Shown here: positions 15,745-21,152 of the stretch, piece after piece
Layout of the letters: every line of letters begins with the position of its first letter
Position numbering within the stretch: position 1 is the stretch's first letter
Origin: a virus
Strand: one strand, 5' to 3'
Length of the DNA: 22,608 nucleotides
IMG/VR virus record: IMGVR_UViG_3300042890_006712
Span: 1-22,608 of that record
Position numbers and translations under genes: made by a program
The notes under the pieces: generated by a model
Told to the model about the DNA's origin: nothing
What the model saw: the letters and a program-made list of their open reading frames with translations, nothing else
Databases searched by the model: none

Positions 15745-17097
15745 ATGGCTGAGACGGTCACCGTAGCCGAGTCTCAAGGCCCGCGCTACACCTGGGTCAA
15801 TGCCAGTTTCACATGGGCAAGCGCCGGTGCAGGCAAGTCTTGGCTCACGGCCTACCCCGCTGTTTATGTGGTGGCGGTGGCTGCCACGCTGGCTTGGGGC
15901 GAGGCGACAGGCCGCCAGCATGGCAAGCGGCTCGCCGAAGGTGTGTCCCTCGCAGAAGAGCGGCGGCATCAAGCCGTACTGCAAAAAGCCGAGTCGCTGG
16001 GGTTTGCCGACACCTATTACGACCTGATCGCTTATGTCCTGCGCTGGGTCGAATCCCTGGGTGTGGCCGAGGGCGTCTCCAAGGCTGGCCGCAAGTCTGT
16101 GCATGAAAACCTCCAAACGCTGGACGACCTGGCCCGCTCTGTGACCAAGGCCGTACAAGAAGGCTTACCCGTGAAGGAAGACCTCTCGCGCCGGGTGCTC
16201 CAAAAGCATGGCGAGAGTCTGCCGATGGCGTCAGTTAGTGCACGGCTGGCCAGCAAAGCATTCGCTGAAGGGGTGAATTTGACCGATGGCCTGGATCAAG
16301 GCTTCAGCAAACGCGTTACCGAAGCCCTGAACTTTGCCGAGACCTACTACGACCTGATCGCTTTCATCCTGCGAATAGGCGAAGGATTGGCCGTAAGCGA
16401 TCAGGCCTCGAGGAAGCTTCAAAAACCTGTCTCGGAGGCATTGAGTACCAGCGATCAGCTCACCCGCCAATCTGTCAAACAGGTGACCGAGGGACTGGCG
16501 TTTGCAGAAAACTTGGGCCGCACGGTGGCGTACAAGCGACTCCTGCAAGAAGGGCTGGGGGTGTCAGATGCTCTGCGCCGGGCGATGCGCCTCGCGGCCC
16601 ACGAAGCCCTGGCCCTTGCCGAGCAGTATCGCCGCCACGCCAATGGCGTGATCAGCGACATGATCGTGGCCAGCACCGAGATCACCGAGGCCGATTTTGC
16701 AAACATTGTGGAAGCTGGCCATCCGCCGGGCTACACGGATTTCCGGGATTTCATTCAGGGTGACTACACCTACCAGAAGGCCTTGTTTCGGGCCATCCTG
16801 AAGTCCAGAAACTCGGACAGAGGTTTCATCGATGCGCTGCGCGTCACGGTGGATGTGCCGGATGTCTTTGACCGGGGAACCGTGCAGATCACCGACGCGC
16901 TGGCAGGCGCTGTGATTGGGTTTTCTCGAACTTTCAGGGTCCCGCCTGAAGTGACCATGACCCACAAGGGCGGCACGGTGGTCGCCATTCCACGCCTGTC
17001 CAGTGCAGTCACGCGAACAGGGTTCACTGCTGTTTTGGAAAACACCGCTGGCACCCGCGTGACCGGCACCTTCACCTGGATCGCTCAGGGGTACTGA
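15745..17097 (+). CDS. Repeat-containing tail protein (thirteen 18-20 residue repeats)
   Basis: The 450-residue product starts six bases after the preceding stop. Residues 1-64 are a short aromatic-rich head. Residues 65-304 consist of thirteen units of 18 (three of 20) residues beginning E-G/S/A-L/V, with the rough consensus E-G-L-x-V-x-D-x-L-x-R-x-x-x-K. Units 2 and 8 both carry TYYDLIA and lie exactly 110 residues apart. Residues 305-390 are a mixed linker with FRDFIQGDYTYQKALFRAIL. The C-terminal 60 residues (VPPEVTMTHKGGTVVAIPRL to GTFTWIAQGY) look like a small beta domain, perhaps a fibre tip or attachment domain. Its place between J and the fibre implies a tail spacer or stalk; no enzyme motif is seen. 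Function is inferred from architecture only. Confidence 0.65.
   Translation: MAETVTVAESQGPRYTWVNASFTWASAGAGKSWLTAYPAVYVVAVAATLAWGEATGRQHGKRLAEGVSLAEERRHQAVLQKAESLGFADTYYDLIAYVLRWVESLGVAEGVSKAGRKSVHENLQTLDDLARSVTKAVQEGLPVKEDLSRRVLQKHGESLPMASVSARLASKAFAEGVNLTDGLDQGFSKRVTEALNFAETYYDLIAFILRIGEGLAVSDQASRKLQKPVSEALSTSDQLTRQSVKQVTEGLAFAENLGRTVAYKRLLQEGLGVSDALRRAMRLAAHEALALAEQYRRHANGVISDMIVASTEITEADFANIVEAGHPPGYTDFRDFIQGDYTYQKALFRAILKSRNSDRGFIDALRVTVDVPDVFDRGTVQITDALAGAVIGFSRTFRVPPEVTMTHKGGTVVAIPRLSSAVTRTGFTAVLENTAGTRVTGTFTWIAQGY
15937..16656 (+). repeat. Coding repeat array, 54/60-base units
   Basis: Thirteen units start at protein residues 65, 83, 103, 121, 139, 157, 175, 193, 213, 231, 249, 269 and 287. 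Ten units are 18 residues and three are 20. A higher-order period of 110 residues (330 bases) is visible: AEGVSL/AEGVNL at 64 and 174, and the TYYDLIA units at 90 and 200. At DNA level ACGACCTGATCGCTT is identical in both of the latter (near 16019 and 16349), suggesting duplication of a six-unit block. Confidence 0.8.
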
Positions 17098-17137: not shown

Positions 17138-18118
17138 ATGCAAAACTTCACCGACATCCCGTCGTCGCGCACGCTCTCTGATTCTCTGATCGAGATCCTG
17201 AACAACGACAAGACAGCGATCTCCTGCAACAGCGGAACCACGTTCCCGACCACCAACCAGCAGGTGGGCATGCTGTGCTACCGCACCGACCAGCTCAAGC
17301 TCTACCAGCTGATCGGCACCAACCCGGACAACTGGCGCTTCATCATGGATTTGGCCAGTGGGATTGATGCCCAGTTCGCAGCCAAGCTCAACGCGGCGGC
17401 CTACACCGCAGCAGACGTGCTGGCCAAGCTGCTCACGGTGGATGGCTCCGGCTCAGGGCTGGACGCTGACCTGCTCGATGGACAACACGCCAGCGCTTTT
17501 GCTTCAGCGTCACACAACCACAATGCAGCCTATCTGGGCATCAGCGCCAAGGCGACGGATTCCGATCGGCTTGATGGCTACGACTCATCGGCCTTTGTCC
17601 GCTCGGTCAATGGTGGTGGTCCTGACGCAAACGGAAACGCCACTGTCAGCATCGACCTGTCTGGCCGGGTAGCGCGCACGGGTGACAGCATGAGTGGGCG
17701 CCTGACCCTGCCCAGCCAGACCGTACAGAGCACTTCGCCCACGATTGATTTTTACGACACAGACCAGGGCAGTACCCGCTACCTGCATGTCAACAGCAAC
17801 CTGATGGGGTTTTTGAAAACCGACGGCAACTGGGACATGTACATGAACAACGGCGGCTCTTTGTGGACCGCCAATTACGGCTGGTTGCACGACTACTTCT
17901 TTGGATCGGTGGGCAATTGTGTGCGTCCGATCAGCTCCAAGGTGACCTCGGGAAGTCCCACAGCTTTTCAGCTGGGCGAAGAAAACGTTATCAACTGTTA
18001 TGGCAGCGGTCCGCACTACCTCATCAACCATGAACTCATGGACAACGGCGGCCAGATTTCTCATCGGATGGTCCGGTATTACACAAACTGCAACTGCAAC
18101 TGTCAGTGCAATTGCTAG
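17138..18118 (+). CDS. Tail fibre protein with Cys-rich NCNCNCQCNC C-terminus
   Basis: The 326-residue product begins 40 bases after the repeat protein. Residues 10-75 form a small domain found at the start of fibre proteins (ILNNDKTAISCNSGTTFPTT, then GMLCYRTDQLKLYQL and WRFIMDL). Residues 109-121 (DADLLDGQHASAF) and 141-153 (DSDRLDGYDSSAF) are the LDG-x(3)-SAF repeats typical of phage tail fibres, with SHNHNAAYLG between them. The distal part (residues about 175-316) is beta-rich and aromatic, with GDSMSGRLTLP and NWDMYMNNGG. The last ten residues (317-326) alternate Asn/Gln with Cys. Five of the nine cysteines are in this tail. Downstream sit a dioxygenase and a radical SAM enzyme, so this C-terminus is the best candidate substrate. 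Fibre identity is well supported; modification is inferred. Confidence 0.87.
   Translation: MQNFTDIPSSRTLSDSLIEILNNDKTAISCNSGTTFPTTNQQVGMLCYRTDQLKLYQLIGTNPDNWRFIMDLASGIDAQFAAKLNAAAYTAADVLAKLLTVDGSGSGLDADLLDGQHASAFASASHNHNAAYLGISAKATDSDRLDGYDSSAFVRSVNGGGPDANGNATVSIDLSGRVARTGDSMSGRLTLPSQTVQSTSPTIDFYDTDQGSTRYLHVNSNLMGFLKTDGNWDMYMNNGGSLWTANYGWLHDYFFGSVGNCVRPISSKVTSGSPTAFQLGEENVINCYGSGPHYLINHELMDNGGQISHRMVRYYTNCNCNCQCNC
18086..18115 (+). repeat. Hexanucleotide repeat encoding the Asn-Cys tail
   Basis: Five degenerate six-base units (AACTGC, AACTGC, AACTGT, CAGTGC, AATTGC) end the fibre gene just before TAG at 18116. The first two are identical. Gain or loss of a unit would change the number of Asn-Cys pairs without shifting frame. 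Confidence 0.8.
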
Positions 18119-18123
18119 GAGGT
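18117..18123 (+). promoter_or_regulatory. Near-perfect Shine-Dalgarno sequence overlapping the fibre stop
   Basis: AGGAGGT at 18117-18123 is a full anti-16S match and begins inside the TAG stop of the fibre gene, five bases before ATG 18128. It is the strongest ribosome binding site noted in the window and fixes the start of the 307-residue protein. It suggests that this protein is made in quantity, as a structural partner would be. Confidence 0.8.
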
Positions 18124-18127
18124 ACCC

Positions 18128-19051
18128 ATGTTCCGTAAAGCTGTATCCAGCATGTCATATCCAGTTTTCCTGGACCTGGTGGTCACCGAACGGATTGTCT
18201 GCCTGACCGCATACACCGAAATTGAGAAGCACATCTTTGAAGCCGATGCTGATCCGGGTGACGATCAATCCGAAAGCATCCGGTCACTGCGCTTTGAAGG
18301 GCATTTTGTTCCTGGCCAACTGCCACCCAAGGCTACAGGGGTTTATCACGACCGCCTGCCATGCGTGCAGTTGGGAAAACCGTTGGTCCTGGGTGAATCG
18401 CTCTCACAGGGCTTGGCAGGGCGCTATTTCAAGGCGGCTTCATATTCATTACTTGACCTGGACGATCCGTCTATCCGCAGCGGAGAAAAGTCTGATGCCG
18501 CAGTCTGGGTGTGTGGTGTGGACTATGAAGGCAACCTGCGCCCGTTTTACAACGCGATTGCTTTTGAAACATCAACCAAGATGCACCCGATGCGTTCGGT
18601 CAGAAACCTCGGGACACCCAGCAATCTATTTATCTACCAACCCTTTGCGAGCACACCGCTGATCCAGTGCAGCATGACGCTCAAATACAACCTGTCCCTG
18701 GGTTACAGAAGCAGTGTGCAAGGTTTCTTCGAGGCCCAGGATTACAACTACCTGCCAGATATGGACGAGGCCTTCCCTCGGCTTGAGTTGATCTCGGGCG
18801 GTGGAGAGATTGGAGCGGGTGGGCAGCATCAGGTCACCGTCCAGGTGGTCAGCGCAGAGGGCAGGGACGCCACTTTGTACCTAGAGGAAACAGGGGGTTA
18901 TTTGCCCATGCGCCGAGTGCGAAGCATCAACGGTAAAGCCTCATTCAAGGTTCATGCCCTGGGATTGGCTGCAGGTGACGCCTTCAAGGTCAAGTTGGGT
19001 TTCAGAAACTACTCCGGGCTGCTGGACGTTCCCTTTGAGGTGGTTGCATGA
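18128..19051 (+). CDS. Unrecognised protein in the fibre-modification block
   Basis: I do not recognise this 307-residue protein. AGGAGGT four bases upstream selects ATG 18128 rather than the later ATG at 18152. It has no signal peptide or membrane segment. Residues 1-215 include YPVFLDLVVTERIVCLTAYT, an acidic patch near 46-52 (DADPGDD), FYNAIAFETSTKMHPMRSVR and IYQPFASTPLIQCSMTLKYN. Residues about 225-307 look like an Ig-like beta domain: QHQVTVQVVSAEGRDATLYL and FKVKLGFRNYSGLLDVPFEV. Four cysteines are scattered. It overlaps the dioxygenase start (ATGA, 19048-19051). It could be a distal fibre subunit, a fibre chaperone or a substrate-presenting partner for the two enzymes; the strong ribosome binding site favours a structural role. 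Confidence 0.7.
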   Translation: MFRKAVSSMSYPVFLDLVVTERIVCLTAYTEIEKHIFEADADPGDDQSESIRSLRFEGHFVPGQLPPKATGVYHDRLPCVQLGKPLVLGESLSQGLAGRYFKAASYSLLDLDDPSIRSGEKSDAAVWVCGVDYEGNLRPFYNAIAFETSTKMHPMRSVRNLGTPSNLFIYQPFASTPLIQCSMTLKYNLSLGYRSSVQGFFEAQDYNYLPDMDEAFPRLELISGGGEIGAGGQHQVTVQVVSAEGRDATLYLEETGGYLPMRRVRSINGKASFKVHALGLAAGDAFKVKLGFRNYSGLLDVPFEVVA

Positions 19052-19734
19052 AGATCACCAACCACTGGGTCACACCTATTGCCGAGTTTGATCTGGCACT
19101 GCCACAGCCGATGCGCCAACAGTTGACGGCAGTACTGCAGCGGAAAGAGGCAGATAGAGACAAGTTGTCCGAGTCTTCACCAGACTTTTTCAGGTTCATG
19201 CAGTCCAAGCAGTTTTACGCTTCGACCCATTACAACCTGTTCGCAGAGGCCAACCAGCACCCCGAGAAGAACGCCATCCTTTCCTTCGAGTTGTTGGCCT
19301 GTAATGCTTATCGGCAATACCTGAGACAAGCCTTGAACATCGAGCAAGCGGATGAGTTGAAGCTTGTGGGAAGGTGCTTTGGGAATGTTCAAACGACAGG
19401 CGGCAGGACCTTTCCGCACTATCACCAGTCTGTCGATCACGTCCTGATCCACTACCTGGATATTCCTGACCACAACGACCCCGAGCTGGGTAAGTCATAC
19501 CGCCACGGCACGCATGCCTTGCTGCTGCAAGACCCGCGTGGTGCCGTGAACTATCCCTATTGGGAAAAAGTGCTCTCAATTGCCCCTTACACAGGCAAAA
19601 CCATCATTCACCCGGCCTACGTCTGGCATGAAAGCAATCCCTACAGAGGGCAGGGCACGCGCATGTGCCTGGTGGTGAATTTTCAGATAGCCAGTCACAG
19701 CTACATCGAGCTGCACAAAGAAATGAGGTTTTGA
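19048..19734 (+). CDS. Probable 2-oxoglutarate/Fe(II)-dependent dioxygenase
   Basis: The 228-residue product has the pattern of the small putative 2OG-Fe(II) oxygenase family (2OG-FeII_Oxy_5-like). FPHYHQSVDHVLIHYLDIP (residues 122-140) carries candidate iron ligands His124 and His126 (with Asp130 nearby). The distal segment IIHPAYVWHESNPYRGQG (residues 186-203) supplies His188 and His194, and Arg205 in TRMCLVVNFQI is the candidate 2-oxoglutarate anchor. Such enzymes hydroxylate or otherwise oxidise side chains. Start and stop overlap both neighbours, so it is co-translated with the unknown protein and the radical SAM enzyme. The substrate is not known; the Asn- and Cys-rich fibre tail is a natural candidate. 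Which histidines bind iron needs a structure prediction. Confidence 0.72.
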   Translation: MKITNHWVTPIAEFDLALPQPMRQQLTAVLQRKEADRDKLSESSPDFFRFMQSKQFYASTHYNLFAEANQHPEKNAILSFELLACNAYRQYLRQALNIEQADELKLVGRCFGNVQTTGGRTFPHYHQSVDHVLIHYLDIPDHNDPELGKSYRHGTHALLLQDPRGAVNYPYWEKVLSIAPYTGKTIIHPAYVWHESNPYRGQGTRMCLVVNFQIASHSYIELHKEMRF

Positions 19735-21095
19735 TGACCATGTTCACCATTCACGCCTTGCGTCAAGACGGCCAAAAAGTCTTGCTGCAATACGACAACC
19801 AGTTGTCCACGCTGACTTGGCAGGATGGCCGCCCCGTAGTGCCTGTTCGGCCCGGCAGTTTCCGGGATGCTACGGTGGTCTCTGTCACCCAACCCGGCCG
19901 CAAAAGCCAAGTAAGCATCCTCAAGATCAGTCTAGGGTTGTCCTGCAATTACGAATGCAGCTACTGCAACCAGCGCTTTGTCCCCCATGCGGATGCGAGC
20001 AACCCGGATGAGATCGAGCCTTTCATCAGTCAGTTGACGGACGCGCTGATCGAGTCACCCGAGCGCATCGAGTTCTGGGGGGGTGAACCCTTGGTGTACT
20101 GGAAGACGCTAAAACCACTGGCTGAACGTCTGCGTAGTTTGTACCCGGATGCTCAGTTCAGCGTCATCACCAATGGAAGCTTGCTCGACGCTCAGAAGAA
20201 TGAGTGGCTCGACCGGATGGGGTTTTCTGTGGGCTTGTCACACGACGGACCAGGCCAGTCCAAAAGAGGGCCCGATCCTCTGGATGATCCTGGTAAATAT
20301 GCCGCCATCATGGACTTGTATGCCCGCTTGCATCCTAAGGGTCGCATCAGCATCAACGCCATGGTTCACTCCAGCAACCAAAGCCGGGCGCAGATTCAGG
20401 TCTGGCTGCAGCAGCGGTTTGGCCAGGATGTGAACATCGGGGAGGGCGCCTTCATTGACCCTTACGATGAAGGCGGTTTAGCTGCAACGCTGCAAACCCA
20501 GCAGGACCATGTGCGTTTCAGGTCTTTGGCCTACAAAGAACTGCGTCAAGGCCTGGCTTCGCGCATGTCAGTGGCGCAGCAGCGCATCATGGATTTTGTG
20601 CAGTCCATACGCTCAGCTCGACCAGCAGCCTCGTTGGGCCAAAAGTGCGGCATGGATAAATCGAACAACCTTGCTGTGGACCTGCATGGCAAGGTGATCA
20701 CCTGCCAGAACGTCAGTGCAGCAGCTATTGCGCCCAATGGCCAACCTCATCAGATTGGCCATTTGTCCAACCTGCAGGCGGTCAAGATGCGCAGCGCCAC
20801 CCACTGGAGCCACAGAGCAGACTGCCCCAGTTGCCCTGTGCTCCAACTTTGCAAAGGCTCATGCATGTTTTTGCAAGGAAAATTGTGGGATGCGGGTTGT
20901 GACGCAGCCTATTCTGACAATGTGCCCTTTTTGGCCGCCGCCATTGAATACCTGACCGGCTGCATCCCTTACTACATCGACGGTGACTTTAGACAGGACC
21001 GAAAAGACGTTTTTGGGCAAGTTCACGGAGTACCTCAGCAACCCCGCAAACGCGTCATTCCCATCTTGGCGCACGACAAGTCTGTCGTAGCCTGA
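19734..21095 (+). CDS. Radical SAM/SPASM peptide-modifying enzyme
   Basis: From ATG 19734 (one-base overlap with the previous stop, GAGG at 19725-19728) the product is 453 residues. The radical SAM motif is C71-x3-C75-x2-C78 (CNYECSYCNQ), with the GGEP motif at 116-119 and SVITNGSLL at 143-151. The C-terminal SPASM region has C305-x13-G-x4-C324, then C364-x2-C367-x5-C373-x3-C377 and C389, the full seven-cysteine signature for two auxiliary 4Fe-4S clusters. Enzymes of this class (anaerobic sulfatase maturases, sactionine synthases, PqqE-like proteins) modify peptides or proteins. The first 60 residues lie before the radical SAM domain and are unassigned. No sulfatase or small RiPP precursor gene is nearby; the Cys-ended fibre is the likely target. 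A terminator follows the gene. Confidence 0.93.
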   Translation: MTMFTIHALRQDGQKVLLQYDNQLSTLTWQDGRPVVPVRPGSFRDATVVSVTQPGRKSQVSILKISLGLSCNYECSYCNQRFVPHADASNPDEIEPFISQLTDALIESPERIEFWGGEPLVYWKTLKPLAERLRSLYPDAQFSVITNGSLLDAQKNEWLDRMGFSVGLSHDGPGQSKRGPDPLDDPGKYAAIMDLYARLHPKGRISINAMVHSSNQSRAQIQVWLQQRFGQDVNIGEGAFIDPYDEGGLAATLQTQQDHVRFRSLAYKELRQGLASRMSVAQQRIMDFVQSIRSARPAASLGQKCGMDKSNNLAVDLHGKVITCQNVSAAAIAPNGQPHQIGHLSNLQAVKMRSATHWSHRADCPSCPVLQLCKGSCMFLQGKLWDAGCDAAYSDNVPFLAAAIEYLTGCIPYYIDGDFRQDRKDVFGQVHGVPQQPRKRVIPILAHDKSVVA

Positions 21096-21121: not shown

Positions 21122-21152
21122 GCCCGCCTGACCTGGTCAGTTCGGGCTTTTT
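21122..21152 (+). terminator. Rho-independent terminator after the radical SAM gene
   Basis: GCCCG (21122-21126) pairs with CGGGC (21143-21147), and CTGAC (21128-21132) with GTCAG (21136-21140) around a three-base loop, with small asymmetric bulges. Five T residues follow (21148-21152). The holin ribosome binding site GGAG begins six bases later, so the structure also forms part of the leader of the lysis cassette, an arrangement like that before the capsid gene. Confidence 0.75.

Follow-up and report, generated by a model that had tools for sequence, protein, structure and literature searches.

We describe a cassette of four genes in IMG/VR virus record IMGVR_UViG_3300042890_006712, in which a tail-fibre gene whose product ends in a Cys-rich tail is followed closely by a gene for a radical S-adenosylmethionine (radical SAM)/SPASM enzyme. 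The window analysed here is the whole record (22,608 bases), which by reading of the sequence contains a siphovirus-like tail region and then runs on to lysis genes. Since its closest chromosomal relatives are prophages of Limnohabitans, Rhodoferax and other Burkholderiales, the host order is probably Burkholderiales and the window probably a contig from one of its phages. All features of the cassette lie on the + strand. The fibre gene, P0001 (326 amino acids; 17138..18118), matches several tail-fibre families of PHROG (best: phrog_7389, 3.4e-11), and its product ends ...YYTNCNCNCQCNC; the Cys-alternating run NCNCNCQCNC, which we propose to be the modified segment, is encoded at 18086..18115. 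Nine nucleotides separate the end of this gene from the ATG of P0002 (307 amino acids; 18128..19051), and the ribosome binding site AGGAGGT (18117..18123) falls in between, overlapping the fibre stop codon. P0002 overlaps the oxygenase gene P0003 (19048..19734) by 4 nt (ATGA), and P0003 overlaps the radical SAM gene P0004 (19734..21095) by 1 nt (TGATG). This layout, a fibre with such an end followed by three tightly linked genes, the first of them behind a near-perfect ribosome binding site, is as an earlier first-pass annotation of the sequence had described it. The same annotation placed a terminator between the cassette and the lysis genes. A stem-loop at 21122..21152 (predicted fold -14.9 kcal/mol, z -2.66), followed by CTTTTT, makes an intrinsic terminator probable there, and a phage lysozyme-like gene can be read downstream; a scan of the window for consensus terminators does not by itself exceed chance (5 found, 4.4 expected). 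No Rfam family matches in the window.

The tail and the radical SAM enzyme form the constant core of this system, and they are its only constant pair. We searched viral contigs for DNA encoding NCNCNCNC and obtained at least 119 loci, with the tail at the C-terminus of an open reading frame (ORF) in at least 90. Among the matches listed, a radical SAM gene is present in 53/53 cases where a C-terminal tail has at least 4 kb of sequence downstream, each time on the tail's own strand and no more than 5.4 kb away. With at least 3 kb the count is 63/64, and in the exception (L199) the enzyme is encoded farther along the same contig. In some loci the two are directly adjacent, only 9-19 nt apart. 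As a control we took listed matches in which the DNA pattern falls outside the Cys frame, and none of these 15 has the enzyme. The difference between 53/53 and 0/15 (Fisher test, p = 2e-15) is only indicative, because related phages are included and the sequences are not phylogenetically independent.

The pairing also holds when the search starts from either partner. With P0004 alone as the query we found 89 loci (75 viral, 14 from genomes), and a Cys-alternating ORF is present in 80 of them. Such a tail is carried by 79 of the 4,204 ORFs of at least 60 amino acids in the six frames of 89 related loci, yet 80/89 loci contain a tail ORF, so that its presence exceeds chance. When the enzymes are clustered at less than 50% identity, 16 of the 19 clusters have the tail in at least one locus. 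With the fibre P0001 as the query there are 79 loci with 72 complete fibres; the Cys tail forms the very end of 71 of these, and in the remaining one (L265) a Hint domain comes after it. Where a fibre relative has at least 4 kb of sequence downstream, tail and radical SAM gene are both present (46/46). Once the tail is removed, the proteins that carry it fall into about ten bodies, among which no mutual similarity is detectable. The pairing is thus near-obligate and occurs on unrelated proteins, and we regard this independence of the body, together with the spread over enzyme clusters, as a stronger argument than the p-value, and one that is sequence-independent. The first-pass annotation had proposed looking for this co-occurrence and had named two patterns that would speak against its proposal, tails commonly without the enzymes and enzymes commonly without the tail. 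Neither is what we see.

All but one of the nine loci found with P0004 that show no tail can be accounted for. Two contigs (L014, L027) start within the tail or immediately beyond it, and in L023 the tail is just outside the stretch fetched. L073 has a variant tail, NCTSACACACNC, and L056 and L062 are cut contigs. In L024 and L089, where no tail lies upstream, the match to the enzyme starts only at residues 34 and 195, respectively; these look like truncated or rearranged copies. The pairing appears to be specific to the radical SAM family of P0004, since we found no such tail near distant phage radical SAM genes (Campylobacter CP220 and others, approximately 22% identity). In a scan of 401 bacterial genomes of one family, most occurrences of the DNA pattern are (AACTGC)n repeats read in other frames; the known prophage supplies the clear C-terminal tail, and one short ORF (L313) is a further candidate. 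These matches (L313-L342) include (AACTGC)n microsatellites in several genomes, with frames that are mostly not Asn-Cys.

What do the tails have in common? A period of two residues is shared by the 73 distinct tails, in which 381 of the 477 Cys-to-Cys steps are of this length. The 455 residues between Cys are mainly Asn (344), followed by Ala (46) and Asp (34). The bias toward Asn does not come from the seed pattern, because tails from loci found through the radical SAM enzyme alone show it equally (153 of 209 intervening positions). We do not count third-position variation among identical tails as evidence of selection; it is conditioned on the peptides being identical.

P0004 matches the radical SAM family PF04055 above its cut-off and the SPASM family TIGR04085 with 30.6 bits (cut-off 27), in agreement with the first reading of this gene. 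In an alignment of 21 diverse homologues the CX3CX2C motif (CNYECSYC, residues 71-78; 19944..19967) is invariant, and little or no variation is seen in GGE(P), SHDGP or the seven SPASM cysteines. The latter (C305, C324, C364, C367, C373, C377 and C389; 20646..20900), six invariant and one nearly, form the conserved pattern CX13GX4C ... CX2CX5CX3C ... C. By profile comparison, the solved structures to which P0004 comes closest are 8vpo, the thioether-forming CteB (5wgg) and anSME (4k36). PapB (NF047865) gives the best E-value in NCBIfam, yet its 68.9 bits compare with a cut-off of 340; anSME (TIGR03942) scores 46.2 bits against 349.45. Because every full-length family score is far below its cut-off, P0004 is a radical SAM/SPASM enzyme outside any named family, nearest to those that modify peptides or proteins.

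The gene between fibre and oxygenase had been called an unknown protein, and P0002 indeed has no match in Pfam, PHROG or NCBIfam. It is not a one-off, however: it is the founding member here of a conserved companion family, U, which is present in 115 of 168 radical SAM loci. A second family, V, is found in 31 others, so that 146/168 loci have U or V. The two are unrelated by profile comparison and interchange between loci, and a shared Cys-rich motif is seen in neither; V has no sequence match among Pfam families. A divergent marine-type family is a relative of U (98.7% probability). The predicted model of U (predicted local distance difference test score, pLDDT, 84) has an N-terminal beta region and a C-terminal Ig-like domain. 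Foldseek comparison with the Protein Data Bank gives Ig-like or other partial matches only, and full-length matches among viral models are to uncharacterised phage proteins only. The model of V is of low confidence (pLDDT 59). In the alignment of U we found neither conserved catalytic-looking residues nor a conserved stretch, and the former suggests a structural, chaperone or adhesin role for this family.

The assignment of P0003 as a 2-oxoglutarate (2OG)-Fe(II) dioxygenase is borne out by PF13759 (E-value 4.4e-8; 33.9 bits, gathering cut-off 27). Its place as a fixed part of the cassette is not: oxygenases of PF13759-like or PF13640 type, thus of at least two 2OG families, occur in 88/168 loci, which makes the enzyme an optional component, found in about half of them. 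As a query, the 2OG enzyme finds only seven close loci.

A further clue comes from fibres in which the tail is internal. Achromobacter phages JWF and 2-1 have the tail NCNCDC(NC)NCSC, and a Hint domain (PF05203, 5.3e-12) begins directly behind it. The same order is seen on another fibre in L203, where the Pfam match is weaker, and on yet another in L265, recognised by its CFPLDTMLTMANG start alone, which gives three Hint-fused lineages. Hint domains cleave at their first Cys. The mature fibre would then again end at the tail, in support of the idea that the tail needs to be a free C-terminus. JWF itself is a siphovirus of temperate lifestyle whose tail measures 254 nm (PMC3899368).

We consider it very probable that this phage cassette matures the tip of the fibre, in that the radical SAM enzyme modifies the tail at the C-terminus of that same fibre, with cross-linking through Cys thioethers as the likeliest chemistry. 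The firmest part is the tail as substrate, in which we have high confidence from the pairing (53/53 listed tails, 46/46 fibre relatives, 80/89 loci) and on which the first-pass annotation is supported. Its term "RiPP-like" (RiPP, ribosomally synthesized and post-translationally modified peptide) fares less well. The fibre does stand in for a separate precursor as the enzyme's partner, but the partner in the window and in most loci is a full-size fibre rather than a small precursor with an N-terminal leader and a cleaved core, and we found no leader shared among the tail-bearing bodies. With no leader peptide seen, this is RiPP-like chemistry at most, and not a RiPP.

In the mechanism we propose, a fibre or tip protein would be made with an exposed C-terminal run of Cys alternating mostly with Asn. 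P0004 would recognise this run and modify it by radical chemistry; as the tail-bearing bodies are not alike, recognition must rest on the run or on a companion bound to the run. The likeliest product would be a series of thioether links from Cys to neighbouring Asn or Asp. Thioethers are favoured because the nearest characterised relatives, the ranthipeptide maturases PapB and CteB, make them, and we hold this choice tentatively, as falling a little short of probable. In about half of the phages the 2OG-Fe(II) oxygenase may add a second step, perhaps hydroxylation of Asn. The companion U (or V), whose gene usually lies a short way beyond that of the fibre, probably serves to cap, chaperone or display the tip once it is matured, and the hardened or chemically special tip would take part in adsorption, a role that we consider somewhat more probable than not having one.

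Several points weigh against this picture. The residues between Cys are mostly Asn, with some Ala, Gly, Arg and Gln, and cannot all be acceptors; PapB links Cys to Asp or Glu, with loose spacing (PMC9413430). The chemistry proposed here is read from sequence. Some tail-bearing proteins are small (65-125 amino acids) and without a family match, and that they are fibre tips is itself an inference. Finally, L072 has intact U and radical SAM genes and no tail in its 28-kb fragment, the sole unexplained case.

The dominance of Asn and Ala between Cys leaves room for epimerisation, Cys oxidation or another change. A lesser but real possibility is therefore that the enzyme acts on the tail with a product other than a thioether, namely epimerised Asn, formylglycine from Cys as made by anSME, or alkylated Cys. 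Since it shares the claim about the substrate, its probability overlaps with that given above to the tail as substrate. anSME is among the closest solved relatives of P0004, and the radical SAM gene of JWF is annotated as an anaerobic sulfatase-maturating enzyme. The strict N-C alternation also recalls peptides of alternating D and L residues, such as polytheonamide. Against these stands the best NCBIfam E-value, which belongs to the thioether-forming PapB, though far under the cut-off.

The remaining alternatives take the tail away from the enzyme. The tail could be a metal-binding tip, in which three chains stack layers of Cys as in the HxH iron sites of T4 gp37, while the enzyme acts elsewhere in the cassette. 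HxH iron-binding fibre tips are known (PMC11705849) and CxCxC is a plausible set of metal ligands; metal binding and modification of the tail could also coexist. As a replacement for modification we think this unlikely, for it gives no reason why unrelated tails should always come with one radical SAM family (53/53 listed, 46/46) when any of U, V and the oxygenase can be missing. It is more improbable still that the enzyme modifies U/V or a host molecule and that the tail is a coincidental neighbour. U does often lie between tail and enzyme, and most loci have U or V, but the two families are unrelated and interchangeable, with a shared Cys-rich motif in neither, while tail and enzyme remain the only constant pair and in some loci adjoin directly. 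A viperin-like antiviral or counter-defence enzyme located near the fibre by chance, suggested by a match of PADLOC pVip models to the radical SAM core (3.5e-15), is hardly credible, and we rejected this identity for P0004, as the match covers residues 70-217 only, the SPASM domain is complete, PapB scores higher and the enzyme is tied to the tail.

How does this arrangement compare with known systems? The ranthipeptide maturases PapB and SCIFF (CteB) resemble P0004 in superfamily, SPASM architecture and a partner with a repeated Cys-containing motif. However, their substrate is a small, leader-bearing precursor, whereas the one proposed here is the end of a protein from a phage fibre or tip, and the CX3D/E motif of the PapB partner differs from the N-C alternation. 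QhpD is a radical SAM/SPASM enzyme that modifies whole proteins. Like anSME and QhpD, P0004 is a SPASM enzyme whose proposed target is a functional whole protein, but their substrates are bacterial enzymes and not part of a virion. The tips of T4 gp37 and the HxH iron-binding tips of marine phages share with our tail the period-2 ligand residues in a fibre tip that is possibly rigid or metal-bound; they use His without a dedicated modifying enzyme, in contrast to Cys with a radical SAM enzyme here. U or V occupies the fibre-adjacent position of helpers such as Tfa and gp38 (adhesin/chaperone). Unlike these, U and V have no Pfam match (U none in PHROG either), and U is tied to the tail and the enzyme.

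Radical SAM gene cassettes have been noted among the tail-fibre genes in the host-recognition cluster of pelagimyophages (PMC7029224), and the passages on them describe no Cys tail, substrate or mechanism. In open-access literature we found no description of a radical SAM enzyme with a tail fibre, of a phage-encoded RiPP or of the NCNCNC motif, though one could exist in a preprint or behind a subscription. The superfamilies of the enzymes are familiar ones; the system as a whole, with its fibre tag, dedicated radical SAM enzyme, companion families, optional oxygenase and exposure by Hint, matches no known kind that we found. With moderate confidence we lean towards a widespread, undescribed form of virion maturation, in which a radical SAM enzyme makes a covalent structure (thioether-laddered or otherwise cross-linked, sometimes hydroxylated) in a graftable Asn-Cys C-terminal tag, with U/V companions and sometimes exposure by Hint.

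The receptor-binding tips of phages are usually regarded as plain polypeptide that in some cases holds glycans or metal ions. If a dedicated radical enzyme does act on the fibre tip, phage-host recognition would gain a further layer, and phages would have for host attachment a tip chemistry that is portable and encoded in their genes. The system recurs in many environmental virus contigs, in sewage phages and in prophages, and the tail could be put to use in the cross-linking of peptides, as a substrate tag that is portable. Because cultured Achromobacter phage JWF and prophages of environmental bacteria carry the system, the question is open to direct testing.

Some loci depart from the common layout. 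Several tandem small tail-bearing ORFs precede one U and one radical SAM gene in L033, L038, L039 and L156, like duplicated or alternative tips. L195 has two tandem cassettes, the first with tail and radical SAM gene and the second with tail, U, oxygenase and a radical SAM gene cut by the contig end. In L103:41-934 and L206 the protein does not stop at the NCNC tail but continues into a C-terminal segment that is similar in the two (ICTKLFSLGMM and VICTELYSQGYM, respectively). L098 (also L139, L104 and L163) encodes proteins of 67-79 amino acids, ending for example in STACNCNCNCNCTRGIL, and their clusters contain as many as four different genes for radical SAM enzymes; this is closer to the classical small-precursor arrangement. 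In approximately 20 viral contigs a TRAP-type solute-binding protein (PF03480 DctP, 1.7e-40; L049:3913-4857) is encoded near the cassette, typically directly after the radical SAM gene. In the window itself, the protein encoded upstream of the fibre (15745-17097) has repeated internal units and a sub-threshold C-terminal match to an H-type lectin domain (PF09458, E-value 0.0035).

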